Part shown: one piece after another, positions 1-34,430 of the stretch
How positions within the stretch are numbered: the stretch's first letter is position 1
Layout of the letters: the number at the start of each line of letters is the position of its first letter
Assembly (NCBI GenBank): GCA_017453465.1
Contig: JAFTEV010000078.1
Coordinates: 1 to 44,956, forward strand
Direction: 5' to 3'
Length of the DNA stretch: 44,956 bases
Source: Bacteroidaceae bacterium
GTDB taxonomy: Bacteria > Bacteroidota > Bacteroidia > Bacteroidales > Bacteroidaceae
The notes under the pieces: model-generated
The model's input: only the letters and a program-made list of their open reading frames with translations
Told to the model about the DNA's origin: nothing
The model's database searches: none
Program-made: the position numbers and the translations under genes

Positions 1-21
1 AGTGAAAAGTGAAAAGTGAAA

Positions 22-91
22 AGTGAAAAATCCGGGTTACTGCAGGATGACGCTGCCATGCGTTGTTTATCCCCAGCAACCCGGATTTTTC
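22..91. repeat. Palindromic repeat with heptamer tract, 3' of the GH10-CE1 gene
   Basis: Seen directly: four heptamers AGTGAAA at 1-28 run into GAAAAATCCGGGTT (25-38), which is exactly complementary to AACCCGGATTTTTC at 78-91, with a loop of about 39 bases. The element begins about 37 bp beyond the stop codon of the xylanase-esterase gene. On the minus strand it gives a hairpin ending in a T-rich arm, so it could act as a weak terminator. A sister copy with compensating stem changes lies at 31515-31586 downstream of typA. Confidence 0.75.
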
Positions 92-103
92 ATTTTTCAC
101 TTT

Positions 104-5889: not shown

Positions 5890-7803
5890 TCAGAGTTGCA
5901 CCGTGAGCATGGTGAAGCTATATGGCGGCAGGTCGAGGGTCTGCTGCTTCTTCAGCTTCACAGTTTCGGTCTTGGGGGCAATGGGCTGTGCGTCGTAGTT
6001 GTTTTCGTCTTCCGCCTGGCCAGCGATGGTAGTCTTGGTGGCCTGAGGCTTCATGCTCTTGAAGCGGCTAAGGTTCAGTTGGACAGTCTTGGCATCGCCG
6101 CTGGCGTTGCAGACTTTGATGAAGAGCTGGCGAGTCTTGGTGTTGAGCACGACCGACTGTTCTTGCAGGTCGGTTGCATCAGTGATTTTCACGCAGTCGC
6201 CATAGTAGTACTGACCGCTCGACTGGCCAAACATCTGCTGCACGTAGTAGCTGCAGGTGAGGAACGGACGCTCGTTGTCGAAGTAGATGAGGTCGGGGTT
6301 CCAGTTCGTCGCGTTCTTCCGGGCAAAGAGGGGTGCATAGCTGGTCATGCAGACCACATCGCCGTTGCGCTCAACGTGGAGCAAGTAGAGGGCTTCGGCC
6401 AAAGCATCAATGAGTTTCTTGTCTTTGGCAGCATATTCGCCCAGATACACCTTGGTCTTGCGACCGCGTGGATACTTGTCGTACTGGCGGTTCTTCAGGA
6501 AGTAGTCGCGCTGTTCGTAGTAGTGCTCATCGAGGATGGGCAGACCAATCTCTTCAGCCAACTTCCAACCGTTGTCGAAGTCGGGATTGCCGGGATGGGA
6601 GCCTGGGCCAGCTGTGCCCACAATCACGATTTCGGGGTGAGCCTTCGTGATGCGCTCGTACATATATTTAAATCGCTCGCAAAATTCGGGCGTAATCTTC
6701 TCTTCGTTGCCTATGCCGAGGTATTTCAGGTTGAAGGGAGCGGGGTGGCCTTGGTCGGCACGCACCTTGCCCCACTTTGTAGTCACATCGCCATTGGCCC
6801 ACTCAATGAGGTCGAGCGCGTCCTGCACCCATTCGTCCATTTCCTGCATGGGCACCACGTCCTGTGCCTGTGTCTTCATGCTCCAGCCGCCGTTGGTGCC
6901 CTGACAGCTCACACCGCAGGGAAGGATGGGTACGGGCTGCATCTGGAGGTCTTCACAGAACTGGAAGTATTCGTAGTAGCCCAGCCCCATTGACTGGTGG
7001 TAGCCCCAGGTGTTCTTCAGCTGGCGGCGTTGCTCCTTGGGGCCGACGGTAGTCTTCCAGCGGTAGGTGTTCCAGAAGCCGTCGCCACCGCCGTGGACTA
7101 CGCAACCGCCGGGGAAGCGCATGAACTTGGGGTGAAGGTCGGCCAGTGCCTGGGCCAGGTCGGGGCGCAGTCCGTGACCTTTGTAGGTGTCTTGCGGCAT
7201 GAGCGAAAGCATGTCGGCATCCAGCTGGCCCGGTGTGAGGACGAGCACCTGCAGGGCTGCCTTCTGGCAGTCAGCATTGGGTTGCAGGGTGGCAGTGTAT
7301 TTCTGCCAGCCAGCAGCGTTCACCGTGAGGGTGGTTTCGGCCAGGAGTTTCGGGTCTTTGCCCCAGCCCTGCGGCTCGACGAGTGCGATGCGCAGTTGCT
7401 TGGCACCGCCCTTGCCGTTGCGGAAGAAGGCCGAGAAGTCGTACTGCTTGCCTTGCTTCACGCTGATGCCCTCGAAGCCGTCGTTCTGGAGGCCGAATCC
7501 CTTCCAGCCGACATAGTCGTAGTATTCCTTCACACGCTCAATGTGCAGACGCATGTAGGTGGGGTTGTTGGGATGAATGGGGTTGTCCATGCGCGGTTCG
7601 AGATAGCCCAGCGAGTGACCAGGGCGAATCATGCGCCAAGCCGTGCCTGGGCCCCAGCCGTCGCGCTCTGTAGGGCTGAACTCGAAGGAGCCGTTCTGCA
7701 GCAGTTCGGCATAGAGTCCGCCGTCGGCACTGGAAGAAATGTCCTCGAAGAAGATGCCGATGAGTTCATCGCTAATCTGCTTTCCGCCCTGCGGCGCAGT
7801 CAT
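5890..7803 (-). CDS. Alpha-L-arabinofuranosidase, GH51, with signal peptide out of frame
   Basis: From the ATG at 7803 the product is 637 residues: an N-terminal carbohydrate-binding-like beta-sandwich (about 40-200), then the GH51 barrel with FPGGCVVHGGG, acid/base Glu367 in GIGNEEK and nucleophile Glu456 in YLGEYAAK, then a C-terminal beta-sandwich. It would release arabinose side chains from arabinoxylan. This start gives no signal peptide, unlike the other enzymes of the operon, and leaves 92 bp after the preceding stop. An ATG at 7868, 27 bp after that stop, opens a typical signal sequence but is out of frame because of a three-copy AGTGAAA tract (7834-7854). With four copies the frame would run through to SLSAQKPMTAPQ. 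As it stands the 22-codon leader ends at a TGA overlapping the ATG at 7803. This may be a switch, an inactivated signal peptide, or an assembly error in the tract. Confidence 0.88.
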   Translation of the reverse strand: MTAPQGGKQISDELIGIFFEDISSSADGGLYAELLQNGSFEFSPTERDGWGPGTAWRMIRPGHSLGYLEPRMDNPIHPNNPTYMRLHIERVKEYYDYVGWKGFGLQNDGFEGISVKQGKQYDFSAFFRNGKGGAKQLRIALVEPQGWGKDPKLLAETTLTVNAAGWQKYTATLQPNADCQKAALQVLVLTPGQLDADMLSLMPQDTYKGHGLRPDLAQALADLHPKFMRFPGGCVVHGGGDGFWNTYRWKTTVGPKEQRRQLKNTWGYHQSMGLGYYEYFQFCEDLQMQPVPILPCGVSCQGTNGGWSMKTQAQDVVPMQEMDEWVQDALDLIEWANGDVTTKWGKVRADQGHPAPFNLKYLGIGNEEKITPEFCERFKYMYERITKAHPEIVIVGTAGPGSHPGNPDFDNGWKLAEEIGLPILDEHYYEQRDYFLKNRQYDKYPRGRKTKVYLGEYAAKDKKLIDALAEALYLLHVERNGDVVCMTSYAPLFARKNATNWNPDLIYFDNERPFLTCSYYVQQMFGQSSGQYYYGDCVKITDATDLQEQSVVLNTKTRQLFIKVCNASGDAKTVQLNLSRFKSMKPQATKTTIAGQAEDENNYDAQPIAPKTETVKLKKQQTLDLPPYSFTMLTVQL

Positions 7804-7868
7804 GGGTTTCTGGGCCGACAGGCTAAGCAGGAAAGTGAAAAGTGAAAAGTGAAAAATCTAAGTTTCAT
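7801..7868 (-). other. Frameshifted leader ORF with (AGTGAAA)3 tract before GH51
   Basis: The ATG at 7866-7868 starts MKLRFFTFHFSLSCLACRPR and ends after 22 codons at a TGA overlapping the GH51 ATG as ATGA. The tract is three exact heptamers at 7834-7854 on the plus strand. Seven is not a multiple of three, so each gain or loss of a unit moves the frame. One more unit gives a hydrophobic signal peptide ending SLSAQ in frame with GH51. The leader's first codons (AAACTTAGATTTTTCAC) are also identical to an arm of the palindromic repeat at 31570-31586. Confidence 0.75.
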
Positions 7869-7895
7869 AAGATTATTGCTGTTATGAGGGGAAAA

Positions 7896-9944
7896 TTAGT
7901 TAATCAGAAAAATCTTCTTTTGACCCTTGTAGGTGCAAGTCACGACGGCACGTCCGTCCTGAATCTTACCAACGCTGATCTGCACAGCCGGGTCTGAGGC
8001 TGTGACGCTGAGCTTGCTCTGCTCGGTCAACCGCCCATACACCTGATAGTGGTTACATTCGGTAAAGCCGTTGGCATTGGTTGCCATCAGAGGCTCTGCG
8101 GGGATGTTCAGCTTCTGGCCATCTGCGGTGATGGTGACGGTGGGCACTGCGGGTCGCTGGGGCATGATGTTTTTCGACAACGCGCTAAAGCTGATGCCGT
8201 GGAGGTCGAAAAGTCCCGGCTTCTGCTGCGTGCGCTGTCCACGGCGTTGCTCCGGTGCCTTCACTTCGGGGCCTTCAGCCACAAGGTAGATGGCGTGCTT
8301 GCCCTGCAAGCCTTCCACTGCTGGCAGGCTCACCGAATACGTGGCCTCCTGCTGCTTGGCCGAGGCTGGCACGTCGATGACGGCAAGTTCCCGCCCCTTC
8401 CAGGCAGCGTTTGCCCAGGGACCGTCAATCATGACGTGAATCTTGAATGCCCCATTGCCGCTGGGCGTGAGGTTCAGGTTCAGCATCGTGCCGTCGCCCT
8501 GCCGGGTTCCCTCGAAAGCCTTCACACCCTTGGCGTCCTTGTCCAGACCGCCAAAGCCAAAGTACTTGAAGCCGACAATGCCGCCATTGGTGATGCCGAC
8601 CAAGTCCATCGAGTTGTTCCACACATCGTGGTTATCCTGCATCCACTCATTGCTGTTGGTGCCGCCATACATGAAACAGGCTATGCCCGCAGAATAGTAT
8701 TGATAAGGAGGCAGACCGAATATCTGGAAACCTTCACTGGTCACCTCGGCACCCGTGTAGGCATTGCCGTCGGCGGCTTTCGCAGTCCACTCATTGCCCT
8801 TCACGTATGGGTCGTAGCCCGTGATACGCACCTTTCCGCCCTGAGCCACAGACTTCTTGTCCCATTCAATCTTTACGGGAGCCACCATCGACTGGCGGGC
8901 ATTGCCGAAGCCACGTGGCGGACGGTGGTAGAACACATACCACTGCCCATTGATTTCCTGCAAGGAGCCATGCGTGTTGTGCCCGGCATTGGTGGTGATG
9001 AGTTTCGACCCGTCCCCGTTCAGCACAACGCCACGGCTGTCAACCAGCACACCGCCACTGCGCCACGGTCCCAGCGGACTGTCGCCGTAGGCATAGCGCA
9101 GGGCACTGTTGGTTGCCCCCAGCCCGTATTCCTGGCCAGAGTAGCCAGAGAACACCATCACATACTTATTGCCGACCTGACGAATGGAGGAAGCCTCAAA
9201 GAAATTGAAGTCCAAAGGATTCTGCCCCTTGTAAAGTGCCTTGTACTCACTGCCCTCCTTGTCGAGCAACCTGCCGTCACGACTGCTGGCAGGGATGAAG
9301 GGGTCTATCAGCTCGGTGCCCGGACGCTGGCTGAACATCGTGCGCTGGTCAAGTTCGCAAGCCGTAGAGTGCTGGAAACCGTAGAACACGTATGCACGGT
9401 AGCCCTTGTCATAGTCCGGGTCTTTCTTGTCGGTGATATTTTCAATAAACACAGAAGGGTCGAAGTCTATCAGCGAACCCTCTACACACTGACTGCCATC
9501 GGCAGAAAGGTTGACTGGCGTAAAGGGGCCATCGGGACGGTCGCCCTTACAAACCATGCCCACACGCCGCCATCCACGGCTATGGGGATAGAGCCAGTAG
9601 GTCTTCTTACCCGTAGCCCGGTCTTTCACCTCCACAAGGTCGGGGGCATACATCGTGTCCCACTGTCCGCCAACATACCATGTAAAGATGGGTCCCTCAT
9701 CACGCCACTGGCTCAGGTCCTCAACTGGAGCCGACCACATACGCACATCGTTGCCGCAATACTTGTTGTAGTGGGTGTCGTGCGAACCAACCACATAGGC
9801 ACGGTAACGGCCTGGGCGGTCGGGGTCTTCAAACACACGGGGTTCTCCGTCTGGTACGTGCTCCCACAGCGGGAGGTAGGGGTTCTGTGCCTGACAGCAC
9901 AGTGCCGTCAGCCCCATCAGTGTTGTAGTCAAAAAACGTTTCAT
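7896..9944 (-). CDS. Secreted GH43-family glycosidase with CBM6-like C-terminal module
   Basis: A 682-residue protein with signal peptide MKRFLTTTLMGLTALCCQAQ. The N-terminal GH43 propeller (about 25-380) shows Asp40 (RVFEDPD, base), Asp162 (DFDPSVF, modulator) and Glu250 (FNFFEASS, acid). Residues about 425-570 look like a CBM6-type beta-sandwich (IVGFKYFGFGG, DGTMLNLNLTP, IHVMIDGPW). The last 80 residues form a further small beta domain. The likely substrate is arabinose or xylose side chains of xylan, inferred from neighbours. It is the first gene of the enzyme operon, with a -7 promoter box at 9994-10001 and a direct-repeat candidate operator just upstream. The CBM assignment is by general resemblance only. 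Confidence 0.82.
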   Translation of the reverse strand: MKRFLTTTLMGLTALCCQAQNPYLPLWEHVPDGEPRVFEDPDRPGRYRAYVVGSHDTHYNKYCGNDVRMWSAPVEDLSQWRDEGPIFTWYVGGQWDTMYAPDLVEVKDRATGKKTYWLYPHSRGWRRVGMVCKGDRPDGPFTPVNLSADGSQCVEGSLIDFDPSVFIENITDKKDPDYDKGYRAYVFYGFQHSTACELDQRTMFSQRPGTELIDPFIPASSRDGRLLDKEGSEYKALYKGQNPLDFNFFEASSIRQVGNKYVMVFSGYSGQEYGLGATNSALRYAYGDSPLGPWRSGGVLVDSRGVVLNGDGSKLITTNAGHNTHGSLQEINGQWYVFYHRPPRGFGNARQSMVAPVKIEWDKKSVAQGGKVRITGYDPYVKGNEWTAKAADGNAYTGAEVTSEGFQIFGLPPYQYYSAGIACFMYGGTNSNEWMQDNHDVWNNSMDLVGITNGGIVGFKYFGFGGLDKDAKGVKAFEGTRQGDGTMLNLNLTPSGNGAFKIHVMIDGPWANAAWKGRELAVIDVPASAKQQEATYSVSLPAVEGLQGKHAIYLVAEGPEVKAPEQRRGQRTQQKPGLFDLHGISFSALSKNIMPQRPAVPTVTITADGQKLNIPAEPLMATNANGFTECNHYQVYGRLTEQSKLSVTASDPAVQISVGKIQDGRAVVTCTYKGQKKIFLIN

Positions 9945-12080: not shown

Positions 12081-13807
12081 TTCAAGGGTAAATACCAGTT
12101 AGACTTTTCTGTCAGCAGATTGTAAAGGCTGTTGTCGAAATTGGCTGAACCATTGCGGCCTGCCACCTTCTGGGCAAGGAACGTCGGGTCGTTTCGGCGC
12201 AGAGCTATTCGCATCAAATCGTAGAAGCGGAGACCTTCGCCTGCTGTTTCGAGTGCCATTTCGTCGCAAATCTTCTCCTCCACAAAGAGGATGGAGTCGG
12301 ACTTCGATGCCAGGGCAGGAATGATGTAGGTCTTGTCGGCATTGGCTTCACCCGAACCGCGAGCGTGAATGCCTTGGGTATTGTCGGTAGTGAAGGTGTA
12401 ACTGCTGAACGTAATGAGGTCGCCGGCTGCGGCACGCTCTTCAGCACTCATGTACTTGTCCATGTGGTCGTTGCAAAGCCCGTACTTCAAGACGAAGAAT
12501 GCTGCTTCGGGGAATCCGGCACGGTTCAGTGCCTCGGCATAACGCAGGTAAACGTGCTGCCGGCGATAGATGGTAACATAGTTTTCATGGCACTTTTCAA
12601 ACAGCTGATAGACTGAAGAGTAGTTGGTAGAACCGCTCGCCAAGGAATGTATCGTGTAGCTAAAGTAGAGGCGTAAGTCTCCACGCATATTCTCATCGGT
12701 ATATACTTTGTCGGCTGGAGGCTCGATGGTGTCGCGCAGCAGGGTGACGGGGTCGCTATAAACGAGGGTGTAACGCTGGCTGCGCGAGAGTTCCTTGTAG
12801 GCGGGACTGGCCTCTGCCTGATAGTAGTAGTTGTTATCCTCTGTGGATTCAAATACGTCGTCGAGGTAGGAAACTGTGCCGTCAAACTCTTCCTCCTCCA
12901 TTGGAATGATGGTTATGTTCTCATCGGTCGATGAATACATGCCACCATAGACCATAAAAGTTTCAAAAGTATAGTCCAACCACCCCTGGCTGTTGATGCC
13001 TGTGGGGTGAATGCTGCCTTGCTTCGTGAGGTAGTCGTGATAATAGCGTGCCGCCTCGGTATAACGTCCAGCCCAAAGGCAAAGGTCGCCCAGCAGCACA
13101 CGCACAGGGATGTAGAATGTGCGAGAGGGGAATGATGCCATCGCGCCATAGTCGGGGTATTCCGTATCGACGTAAGGCGCAAGGTCGCTGATGAAGTAAT
13201 CAGCCATCTGCTGAATGTCGTACTTCGGGAAGAGTTCGGGGTCAGCATCTTTCTCTGTGAGGAGCGGCTCGGTGTAGAAGGGCACACTGCCGTAATTGAG
13301 AGCCAACTGCATGTAAGTCCAGGCACGGTAGGCCTTGATGACGGCGTACTCCTTTTCGAACACCTTCACACCGCGCTTCATCAGATTCATGTCTGCCGTA
13401 GCCAGAAAGTAGTTGCAATTCTGGATGATGGCATAGTAGTCGCTCGGCTTGTTGTAAGGGTTTGCCGCATCAGCGGTGAAGTTTGCCAACGCCTGCAGAT
13501 TGAGGTTGGCATGGCCGGTCAGGCTTGTCAGGTCGCCACGCACCTCACCCAGCAGCACCGTGCGGTCGGCTATCACCTGCATCTTGCTGATGATGCCGAG
13601 CAGGGAGTAAACCGTGTCGTTGGGCGTATCGAGGTTGTTGTCCTCCACAAATTCCACCAAACTGCTTTCGGGTTCAGTGCAGGAGGATATGAAAAGTGAA
13701 AAGTGGAAAGTAACAATGCCCAGCAACAGCGTGGAGGCGTATTTCACTTGTTTTCTTATCGAATGATATTGCATCTTCATAATAATAGTAAAAATTGACT
13801 TTGTCAA
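12077..13807 (-). CDS. SusD-like outer-membrane glycan-binding lipoprotein (second pair)
   Basis: A 576-residue RagB/SusD-type protein. The N-terminus has a lipoprotein signal ending LFISSC, so it is anchored by Cys43 in the outer membrane. The SusD-typical helical core is recognisable in KAYRAWTYMQLALNYGSVPF and in the C-terminal ETAGEGLRFYDLMRI block. It would cap the SusC barrel encoded 12 bp upstream and capture xylan oligomers. The signal peptide residues TFHFSLF are coded by a degenerate copy of the AGTGAAA repeat (about 13691-13709). The start at 13807 is weakly supported; internal Met10 or Met12 gives a more ordinary signal length. Its stop overlaps the esterase start. Confidence 0.92.
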   Translation of the reverse strand: MTKSIFTIIMKMQYHSIRKQVKYASTLLLGIVTFHFSLFISSCTEPESSLVEFVEDNNLDTPNDTVYSLLGIISKMQVIADRTVLLGEVRGDLTSLTGHANLNLQALANFTADAANPYNKPSDYYAIIQNCNYFLATADMNLMKRGVKVFEKEYAVIKAYRAWTYMQLALNYGSVPFYTEPLLTEKDADPELFPKYDIQQMADYFISDLAPYVDTEYPDYGAMASFPSRTFYIPVRVLLGDLCLWAGRYTEAARYYHDYLTKQGSIHPTGINSQGWLDYTFETFMVYGGMYSSTDENITIIPMEEEEFDGTVSYLDDVFESTEDNNYYYQAEASPAYKELSRSQRYTLVYSDPVTLLRDTIEPPADKVYTDENMRGDLRLYFSYTIHSLASGSTNYSSVYQLFEKCHENYVTIYRRQHVYLRYAEALNRAGFPEAAFFVLKYGLCNDHMDKYMSAEERAAAGDLITFSSYTFTTDNTQGIHARGSGEANADKTYIIPALASKSDSILFVEEKICDEMALETAGEGLRFYDLMRIALRRNDPTFLAQKVAGRNGSANFDNSLYNLLTEKSNWYLPLK

Positions 13808-16800: not shown

Positions 16801-17047
16801 TGTAATCGCCCTGTTCGTCAGTCATGGCAGAATACAGCCCATTGTTGTATGCCTGCACACGCACACCCGCAGCAGGTTCGCCTGTGGCAGCGTCGAGCAC
16901 ACGACCCTTCAGTTCGACCAAGTCTTGCGGTTTCGCGGTTTTGCGGTTTTGCGGTTTTACGATTGTTGAGTCTTGTGGCTGTGCCGCCAGTGTGCCACTG
17001 GCCATGAGGCACGCAGCCTCTATCAATATCAATGCAATGTGTTTCAT
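13820..17047 (-). CDS. SusC-like TonB-dependent outer-membrane transporter (second pair)
   Basis: A 1075-residue protein: signal peptide (cleavage about LAA-QP, residue 22), carboxypeptidase-D regulatory-like domain about 45-115 (LKGRVLDAATGEPAAGVRV), plug domain about 145-260 (VLKNGAAIYGAKGANGVVV), then a 22-stranded-type beta-barrel ending in GRSFSIGAKINL. It imports glycan fragments using TonB energy with the SusD encoded next. The start overlaps the preceding FAS1 gene stop by 4 bp (ATGA at 17044-17047). Residues 30-41 (VKPQNRKTAKPQ) are encoded by an octamer array AAAACCGC (16927-16958), a low-complexity insert between signal and first domain. A change of one octamer there would shift the frame. 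Confidence 0.94.
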   Translation of the reverse strand: MKHIALILIEAACLMASGTLAAQPQDSTIVKPQNRKTAKPQDLVELKGRVLDAATGEPAAGVRVQAYNNGLYSAMTDEQGDYTIKVPKYVTSLSFEAEGYNLVQQAVSAVGGSVVPVKMYSSQFFETYREQTTAQSLKTAQVGYNNNDLSIDPQLQTQFGGDMLTAVRSGMPGVGLKMLMNGVNSLNSNALPLVVIDGVIQNMQYDGTTQHDGFYNNVLANIMVEDIERISVLKNGAAIYGAKGANGVVVIETKRNKSMATRIDVSVGGSFQLLPRRVEMMDARQYRVFASELIGTTGTKSNSFKFLQTDPKYYYYNMYHNDTDWSKQVRKESFVQNYSINVQGGDDVANYNLSVGYAGARATLKDNSFSRFNLRLNTDIVLAKNVNIRFDAAYSDVNRNMRDDGVKDNVTDGINSSPGFLSLIKAPFLSPYAFDTSGNISSYLAEADDYLGDVVTTAKYTKSLPNPTAILENGEGKNKNYFSNRMISLAVTPQWKISKDWTVADHFAFQLVNTDENYYLPTNGVPTYEVKGIGSVENTASALAARQITVMNDLYFRFNHRWNAHLLGVRGGWRYLRDTYRLNTQVGYDTGNDKTPNMSSSLSYKQTDGLDNRNVNLTYYLTADYNYLERYYLTAALSMDGSSKFGVDAADGVKIGNYAFGFFPSVEAAWVMTNESWMPKSKGLNYLKLNVGFDLLGNDGVNSQASRTYFAARRIFDSTTGLAIANIGNTRLQWETTARLTAGLQLSAFSNRLNFQFNYFFANTYNLLSLSSLSYLTGLQTNWTNGGRVRNQGFDVGFDVKVLNLKDWKWSLGASMGHYKNSIQSLPGTDGYVDQTLYGATIRNQEGMATGLFYGYKTDGVFASQGEADAASLYQLTETGAKQYFAAGDMRFVDVNGDHCIDQQDRQVIGDPNPDVYGTLHTQLSWKRFTLSANFTYSLGGDVYNYQRSILESGSYFYNQTTAMKNRWTHEGQQTDIPRASFLDPMGNSRFSDRWIEDGSYLKLKTVTLSYTLPIRSTYLQGITVWAAANNVFTLTRYLGSDPEFSHSNSVLGMGIDRGLLGSGRSFSIGAKINL
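16927..16958. repeat. Octamer array inside the susC-like gene 5' end
   Basis: Four tandem octamers, GCGGTTTC then GCGGTTTT three times on the plus strand. They lie in the coding sequence just after the signal peptide of the second SusC. The same octamer family forms seven copies upstream of the other susC-like gene (25953-26008). Confidence 0.8.
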
Positions 17048-25919: not shown

Positions 25920-25952
25920 AACTAATTGAACAATTGGACAATTTACAATTTT

Positions 25953-26063
25953 GCGGTTATACGGTTGTGCGGTTTTACGGTTGGGCGGTTGTGCGGTTAT
26001 ACGGTTGATACTCAAATTGTGAATTGTTAATTGTGAATTGTTAATTGTGAATTATTAATTATT
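25953..26063. repeat. Octamer array and heptamer array between FAS1 gene and susC-like gene
   Basis: Seven octamers of the form RCGGTTNN (25953-26008) are followed by seven heptamers of the AATTGTG/AATTGTT/AATTATT type (26015-26063). The last heptamer overlaps the stop codon of the FAS1 gene at 26059. They lie in the leader of the first susC-like gene. The octamer is the same family as that inside the second susC-like gene. Confidence 0.8.
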
Positions 26064-28738: not shown

Positions 28739-28774
28739 TACTTTGGGAAGTGAAAAGAGGAAGATTGAATATTG

Positions 28775-28880
28775 AATTAGGAATTAGGAATGAGGAATTA
28801 GGAATGAGGAATTGATACTCCAATTGTGAATTGTGAATTGTGAATTATCAATTGTCAAATTGTAAATTGTCCAATTGTCC
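28775..28880. repeat. Heptamer arrays AATTAGG and AATTGTG
   Basis: Five heptamers AATTAGG/AATGAGG (28775-28809) are followed by three AATTGTG (28822-28842) and a degenerate stretch of AATTGTCC-like units to about 28880. They fill the gap between the GH43 stop and the terminator hairpin. Confidence 0.75.
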
Positions 28881-28890
28881 AATTCGTCAC

Positions 28891-31514: not shown

Positions 31515-31586
31515 AGTGAAAAATCTAAGTTACAGTATAGCCAGCATCGGGGCTGTGTTTAGCTCCAGCAACTTAGATTTTTCACT
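31515..31586. repeat. Palindromic repeat downstream of typA
   Basis: AGTGAAAAATCTAAGTT (31515-31531) is perfectly complementary to 31570-31586, with a 38-base loop. The loop ends in CCAGCAAC, as does the copy at 22-91. The stem core differs from that copy (CTAAG instead of CCGGG), but the opposite arm changes to match. It starts 50 bp past the typA stop and could terminate it. The 31346-31635 gap otherwise holds the GPH promoter. Confidence 0.75.
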
Positions 31587-34393: not shown

Positions 34394-34421
34394 AATTAGG
34401 AATTAGGAATTAGGAATTAAG
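34394..34421. repeat. AATTAGG heptamer array between divergent promoters
   Basis: Three exact AATTAGG heptamers and one AATTAAG (34394-34421) lie between the -7 boxes of purU and the M48 protease gene. They occupy the positions where both -33 elements would be. Confidence 0.75.
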
Positions 34422-34430
34422 AATATTTCG

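Follow-up and report, generated by a model that had tools for sequence, protein, structure and literature searches.

A heptamer-repeat leader that may have lost one unit ahead of a GH51 arabinofuranosidase gene in a Bacteroidaceae genome

What has become of the signal peptide of an enzyme that its relatives appear to export? The question is raised by a GH51 alpha-L-arabinofuranosidase gene in a 44,956-bp stretch of DNA (the window), which is one whole contig, C68, of the genome assembly of a Bacteroidaceae gut bacterium akin to Prevotella (G000; 3.16 Mb, 108 contigs, 85% complete, 6% contamination, some contigs redundant). The body of the enzyme matches PF22848 and PF06964, the GH51 catalytic and C-terminal domains. 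It is surrounded by other glycan-degradation genes, and the neighbouring enzymes have leaders, as judged by eye. This GH51 copy has no signal peptide in frame: on the minus strand, the frame that opens at the ATG at 7868 reads MKLRFFTFHFSLSCLACRPRNP and then stops, its TGA (7802–7800) overlapping the ATG (7803–7801) that opens the body, and this leader, which includes a tract of heptamers, is out of frame with the enzyme. The explanation that we favour, with a probability of roughly 0.6, is that a repeat-type signal peptide has recently lost one unit, passing from four to three, while the enzyme body is still under constraint.

The two start codons are 65 nucleotides (nt) apart and 65 leaves a remainder of 2 on division by three (calculated by hand), so that the addition of one heptamer, or the removal of two, restores the leader frame. 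With a 7-nt unit and this spacing, a change of unit number in the repeat, which lies in coding sequence, shifts the frame of the product. A first-pass annotation of this DNA had described three AGTGAAA units at 7834–7854, an ATG at 7868 placed 27 bp past the preceding gene (whose stop ends at 7896), a 22-codon leader and an ATGA overlap at 7803, and had argued that one extra heptamer would bring a signal peptide into frame. All of these features are present, the tract delimited by Tandem Repeats Finder (7832–7855) agrees with the first of them, and the spacing arithmetic bears out the argument. Four perfect arrays of period 7 (19 bp or longer, with 2.5 copies or more) are present in the window, compared with none in 20 first-order resamples.

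Other ways of reading the leader into the enzyme were rejected. A programmed frameshift would have to be of −1, and by inspection the T run contains no canonical slippery heptamer. The body frame is shut by TAG at 7860–7858, with no ATG between there and 7803; an ATT start directly after this TAG would give a leader without positive charge and was judged unlikely.

Homologues with an intact signal peptide, which the annotation had proposed to look for, prove to be the rule. The set compared comprised the best 80 of at least 587 confirmed relatives, in which records from this or a very near genome may be missing; by their record titles, the relatives come mostly from uncultured Prevotella, Prevotellaceae, Bacteroidaceae or Bacteroidales, many of them from ruminants. 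All 80 orthologues have an ATG ∼22–27 codons upstream and in frame with the body, followed by a leader that is signal-peptide-like by eye and in most cases ends in AQK. Export is therefore the normal state of GH51, and the window copy appears to have departed from it recently. In none of the 80 do the 150 nt upstream contain a period-7 run as long as 17 nt; period-8 runs are seen in two (L209, L216).

Met occupies the first codon of the body in 67 of the 80 orthologues and ATGA is found in 59, so the overlap of stop and start is ordinary mature-protein sequence and gives no hint of a coupling device. The annotation had envisaged a one-unit step between an exported enzyme and an unexported one made by a coupled restart; the step survives this comparison, whereas a purpose-built restart gains no support from it.

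The closest relative, in genome G004 (87% identity), aligns with the window at the ATG and at both flanks of the leader, the window being shorter by a net 4 nt. Between the two, the GH51 body has a nonsynonymous divergence (dN) of 0.094 and a synonymous divergence (dS) of 0.785, a dN/dS of 0.12; five other genes of the cluster give 0.12–0.34. Its amino-acid changes, 33 specific to the window and 23 to G004, lie inside the range of the four other genes comparable with G015. Such strong constraint on the body, despite the lesion in the leader, would fit a fixed and useful relocation, in which this species now keeps the enzyme in the cytoplasm, for use on arabino-oligosaccharides that it imports. 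The same signature would be left, however, by a lesion still too young for decay, and with in-frame leaders in all 80 orthologues and on the neighbouring enzymes we consider relocation highly improbable.

The heptamer tract is part of a dispersed inverted-repeat element and not a lone microsatellite. The 16 bases that adjoin the heptamers, AACTTAGATTTTTCAC (7849–7864), belong to the feature; the annotation had not picked them out, and had overlooked both the element and the in-frame leaders of this type in other genes. With up to two mismatches this arm sequence is matched 92 times in the 3.16-Mb assembly, 52 of them exactly (some of the 92 stand on redundant contigs), compared with none for the reversed control; two heptamer units occur 66 times and their reversed control 27 times. 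The complete element, ∼69 bp long, consists of AGTGAAA units, AATCTAAGTT, a 37-nt core (near TCAGTTTAGCCAGCATTAGGCTGCGTTTAGCCCCAGT), AACTTAGATT and TTTCACT units, and many of the two-unit matches form opposed pairs 69 bp apart. The fetched G000 loci include 30 canonical full copies, with a core of 37 nt in 29 and of 38 nt in the copy found in the window. The element is mostly intergenic, as 35 of 36 arm pairings overlap no open reading frame (ORF) of 120 amino acids (aa) by 40 bp, and in this, in its many copies and in its inverted arms it resembles a miniature inverted-repeat transposable element.

REP/RAYT palindromes are likewise short, dispersed, intergenic palindromic units; the present element differs in its heptamer arms and 37-nt core, and a REP/RAYT system was ruled out by the lack of any Y1_Tnp (PF01797) match in G000, at 85% completeness, compared with a presence in 5 of 14 controls. 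One exact 23-base pattern, used as a probe for phage carriage, has no match in viral_contigs, and the window has no Rfam match at the gathering threshold. A single syntenic comparison with G004 was made for an empty site, and the sequences are too diverged to show one.

The GH51 leader carries a solo arm of this element. Exact matches to it extend over 34 nt in contig C67 and 32 nt in C5 and C37 of the same genome, and the longest in 89 kb of syntenic DNA from G004 and G015 is 14 nt. When 1,101 bp around the leader were compared with the genome by BLAST (a first look scored 40 of 100 candidates), 67 of 70 matches fell on the leader, at 7802–7871, the remaining three being the locus itself and two GH51 paralogues; among the matches listed, the locus is present once. 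The arm (up to one mismatch) is found in 32 of 61 genomes, very unevenly: 80 times in G014, 66 in G000, 65 in G003, 61 in G002, 55 in G017 and 48 in G026, once in G004 and three times in G015. TAnnTTTG is the Bacteroidetes promoter motif, and two other solo arms (L078 and L082, on G000 contigs C37 and C45) stand just upstream of promoter-like sequence; arms may thus also occupy promoter regions.

The coding properties of the arm suggest how it could serve as a leader. TTTTCAC contains no stop in any forward frame, each of which gives the cycle FSLFTFH; on the reverse strand every frame has stops. At the start of a gene, an arm in this orientation therefore yields one and the same phenylalanine-rich core whichever frame is used, and changes of unit number keep the core of the leader while shifting the frame of the enzyme. 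On the explanation that we favour, the leader DNA would be an element arm, AACTTAGATTTTTCAC plus TTTTCAC units, and its ancestor would have had four units and been in frame (MKLRFFTFHFSLFTFLLSLSAQ). A hand alignment of this putative ancestral peptide to the G004 leader needs a gap of one residue, and the peptide would equal the leader of a G017 lipoprotein in MK-RFFTFHFSLFTFLL. One unit would then have been lost recently, through slippage or through recombination with other arms. In the present allele the leader would end after 22 codons and the enzyme, if made, would start at Met 7803, within the mature sequence, and remain cytoplasmic; this GH51 copy thus probably stays inside the cell. Regaining a unit would reverse the loss in principle, probably at a low rate.

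Arm-type leaders recur in other genes, where they are in frame. In 45 genomes of the genus, ATGAAACTTAGATTTTTCACTT (up to one mismatch) has 23 matches, of which 18 start with ATG and three of those read ATGTAA. Thirteen of the other 15 are followed in frame by ORFs of at least 225 aa, the exceptions being GH51 and a 10-codon ORF; five of the 13 belong to one gene family and three to another, and several are orthologous to each other. One of these long ORFs, on G000 contig C93, has the leader MKLRFFTFHSSLFTIPLFLLCALSVHSQ, in which the element forms part of an in-frame leader as judged from ORF continuity and, for the signal peptide, by eye. When the pattern was widened (ATGA, up to 29 nt, two units), it matched at 110 distinct places, and the 93 with an ATG frame open through the array were all fetched. 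The ATG frame runs on for 100 aa or more at 34 of these, a long ORF occupies another frame at 12, and neither is seen at 47.

Signal peptides were recognised by eye in 17 of the 34 in-frame leaders, in 11 gene groups. Excluded from the 17 were places that are not signal-peptide-like (L296, L299, L300, L303, L307, L324, L327, L341, L363, L371 and L385) and places inside a membrane-protein ORF (L301, L326, L348, L354, L358 and L380). Inspection of all 12 out-of-frame rows showed that, GH51 apart, each has a separate ATG beyond the array, lacks a plausible start or reads as non-coding. GH51 is therefore the sole out-of-frame leader of 18, again by eye. With a chance of 1/3 of being in frame, at least 17 of 18 has p = 1e-7 and at least 11 of 12 groups p = 5e-5, values that serve as a rough guide only. 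The excluded membrane-protein ORFs, from six genomes, carry the end of an arm and four heptamers in frame (KETGxLDFSLFTFHFSLQS), one unit being imperfect in G020.

Unit number is conserved across species in the orthologue groups that were aligned, although not every group is constant. G017 (MKNRFFTFHFSLFTFLLMLTLASC) and G068 have in-frame leaders of four units that continue, like the GH51 leader, into CACTTTCCT, and the lipoprotein leader has four units in G006, G017, G027 and G068, one of them imperfect in G006 and G027, two genomes of identical sequence at this place. The CVKED group (G027, G035) shows a gapless alignment of the array and a leader that differs by 12 nt upstream; in the QLDNTVEVTN group the leaders are of heptamers in G027 and G066 and of other sequence in G003 and G014. 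One gene family had a match in 40 genomes and was read at 30 loci, four genomes being without an arm count. Arm-type leaders occur in G002, G003, G017, G023 and G026 (21–65 arms each), which may share them by descent, and other leaders in the rest, including those of the arm-rich G014 (80) and G025 (26).

This constancy of frame and unit number in aligned heptamer leaders (four units, in four and in six genomes) argues against a contingency locus, at which frequent slipped-strand changes would maintain, under selection, a population mixing exported (four-unit) and cytoplasmic (three-unit) GH51. Several features would suit such a switch: the exact one-step frame arithmetic, a core that slips would spare in all three forward frames, a second arm in the assembly that exists in two lengths (C12/C92), and a product that is a normally exported glycan enzyme among glycan-degradation genes. 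Heptanucleotide phase variation with a measured effect is described for hmw1A of Haemophilus influenzae, with 13–24 units in the constructs, in the portion of the account available (PMC8262952). Both cases involve 7-mers in tandem, and in both a surface-related product could depend on how many there are, but the hmw1A repeats lie in the promoter region, whereas those of GH51 amount to 3.4 units, lie in the leader and are seen at a single length. Given also that the best 80 of at least 587 GH51 orthologues contain no heptamer array, and that the locus is known from a single copy in one genome, we regard a maintained switch as unlikely.

The missing unit could alternatively be an error of assembly or consensus, the true majority sequence having four units and a normal signal peptide. 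The assembly is fragmented and contaminated to the degree given above, it has redundant contigs, one pair of which differs inside an arm, and the window's contig itself begins in a heptamer array. On the other hand, the GH51 body is intact and the locus unique, and the 24-bp tract has unique flanks and is shorter than a typical short read; an error here seems to us quite improbable. The redundant, near-identical regions are C12/C92, C83/C89 and C105/C82 (L039, L040, L110, L103, L107, L104, L108, L119 and L123). Contigs C12 and C92 align over 2,962 + 3,014 = 5,976 positions without a mismatch, and their single gap, of 38 bp, falls within an arm, so that in the stretches compared they differ solely by a 38-bp arm duplication, which may reflect population variation or assembly behaviour. 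The first bases of the window's contig fall within a heptamer array and a diverged element-like inverted repeat. Some other contigs of the genus likewise open with such an array or close to one (G066 C29 and C120 at base 4, G000 C83 at base 51); the repeat may therefore break assemblies.

Several points weigh against a recent loss of one unit. The 38 bp by which C12 and C92 differ do not correspond to a heptamer step and may stem from the assembly, and the arms do not differ within the redundant pairs C83/C89 (one mismatch) and C105/C82 (none). A single genome represents the species and the locus occurs once, the four-unit allele is inferred and not directly observed, and a one-unit ancestor is arithmetically possible. 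The leaders were classed as signal peptides by eye, the orthologues are not independent, and 17 of the 110 places, with an ATG frame closed before the end of the array, lie outside the fetched set. Leaders with a perfect period-7 run are rare, at 1 in 139 in an unselected sample. Finally, the G004 leader is already arm-like in places (TTAGATTTTT, TCACTTTTC), so that the leader may be of common descent and have converged later on the arm, instead of arising by one insertion.

That sample comprised 139 signal-peptide-like ORFs, picked by a crude rule of our own from 86 sequences not chosen for heptamers. Together with a lag-7 agreement of 0.256 in these ORFs and 0.227 in gene bodies, it rules out heptamer periodicity as a general property of signal peptides. 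In one family, the leaders of L432 (G016), L422 (G007) and L425 (G066) contain other heptamer-like units, TTTTTAG and TTCAATC, by eye, a hint that the sources of signal peptides may include other dispersed heptamers.

The window contains a second heptamer-coded leader, on a gene that is SusD-like by eye (Table 1); in its orthologue in G004 this position is taken by a heptamer of another sequence. Further heptamer or octamer arrays (GCGGTTTT, AATTGTG, AATTAGG) are seen at 16925–16958, 25949–26060, 28767–28889 and 34394–34424, the second being absent from G004 and different in G015, and the third replaced in G004. The gene preceding GH51 in the presumed operon gave no Pfam match at E 0.001.

Table 1. 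Positions of the leader, its repeat and related features in the window.
Feature	Position	Strand	Details	Source
Diverged element-like inverted repeat	1..102	.	Heptamer arms (AATCCGGGTT ... AACCCGGATT); contig edge	Read from sequence
GH51 alpha-L-arabinofuranosidase body	5890..7803	-	637 aa	ORF and Pfam
Leader ORF	7800..7868	-	22 codons; begins MKLRFFTFHFSL; stop TGA overlaps ATG 7803	
Heptamer tract	7832..7855	-	3.4 copies of TTTTCAC (AAAGTGA on +)	Tandem Repeats Finder, period 7, 100%
Solo arm of GH51 leader	7834..7867	-	34 nt identical to arm in G000:C67	
Upstream gene of presumed operon	7896..9944	-	682 aa	Leader MKRFLTTTLMGLTALCCQAQ by eye
Second heptamer-coded leader	13690..13711	-	3.1 copies, 93%; TFHFSLF then SSC; in frame; SusD-like by eye	
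Full element copy	31516..31585	.	Arms 16 nt, core 38 nt	

The closest precedent that we found is YPO1552 of Yersinia, whose signal peptide derives from the RU-2/YPAL repeat element and in whose relatives there is no overlap between leader and element, according to the available parts of the accounts (Delihas 2007, PMC2759123, PMC2229807). Repeat-derived signal peptides as such are therefore already known. So far as those parts go, the likeness lies in the origin of the signal peptide from a repeat element. The present case differs in that the donor is a heptamer-armed end that reads one peptide cycle in all three frames, that within one genus the arm-type leader is found in about 11 gene groups, and that the window's copy is out of frame. 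Dispersed heptamers have also been described, TAACTGA in Beggiatoaceae and a few Bacteroidetes (PMC4679880) and GGGAATC in Xanthomonas (PMC4692102). Like those seen here, they form short, genome-wide, largely intergenic arrays; their units differ, and the available portions of these accounts describe neither a heptamer-armed inverted-repeat element nor a use as signal peptides. Among the papers listed, none reports the element or phase-variable signal peptides in Prevotella, and the recurrence over gene groups and the frame-independent core are likewise undescribed in the literature covered.

A wider proposal, which we put forward tentatively and think unlikely as it stands, is that, across this Prevotella-like genus, heptamer-armed repeats form a store of ready-made signal peptides with a one-unit export switch, GH51 having been caught in its cytoplasmic state. 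If this were true, an arm that lands at a gene start, or converts one, would give the same phenylalanine-rich leader in any frame. The present case links dispersed repeats with protein export, two subjects usually treated apart, and offers a testable route by which unrelated proteins could gain a signal peptide and lose it by one mutational step. Should the number of units change in natural populations, a fibre-degrading enzyme could be switched heritably between a public and a private location; should it not, the locus is still a clear case of repeat-type coding sequence causing the loss of export.
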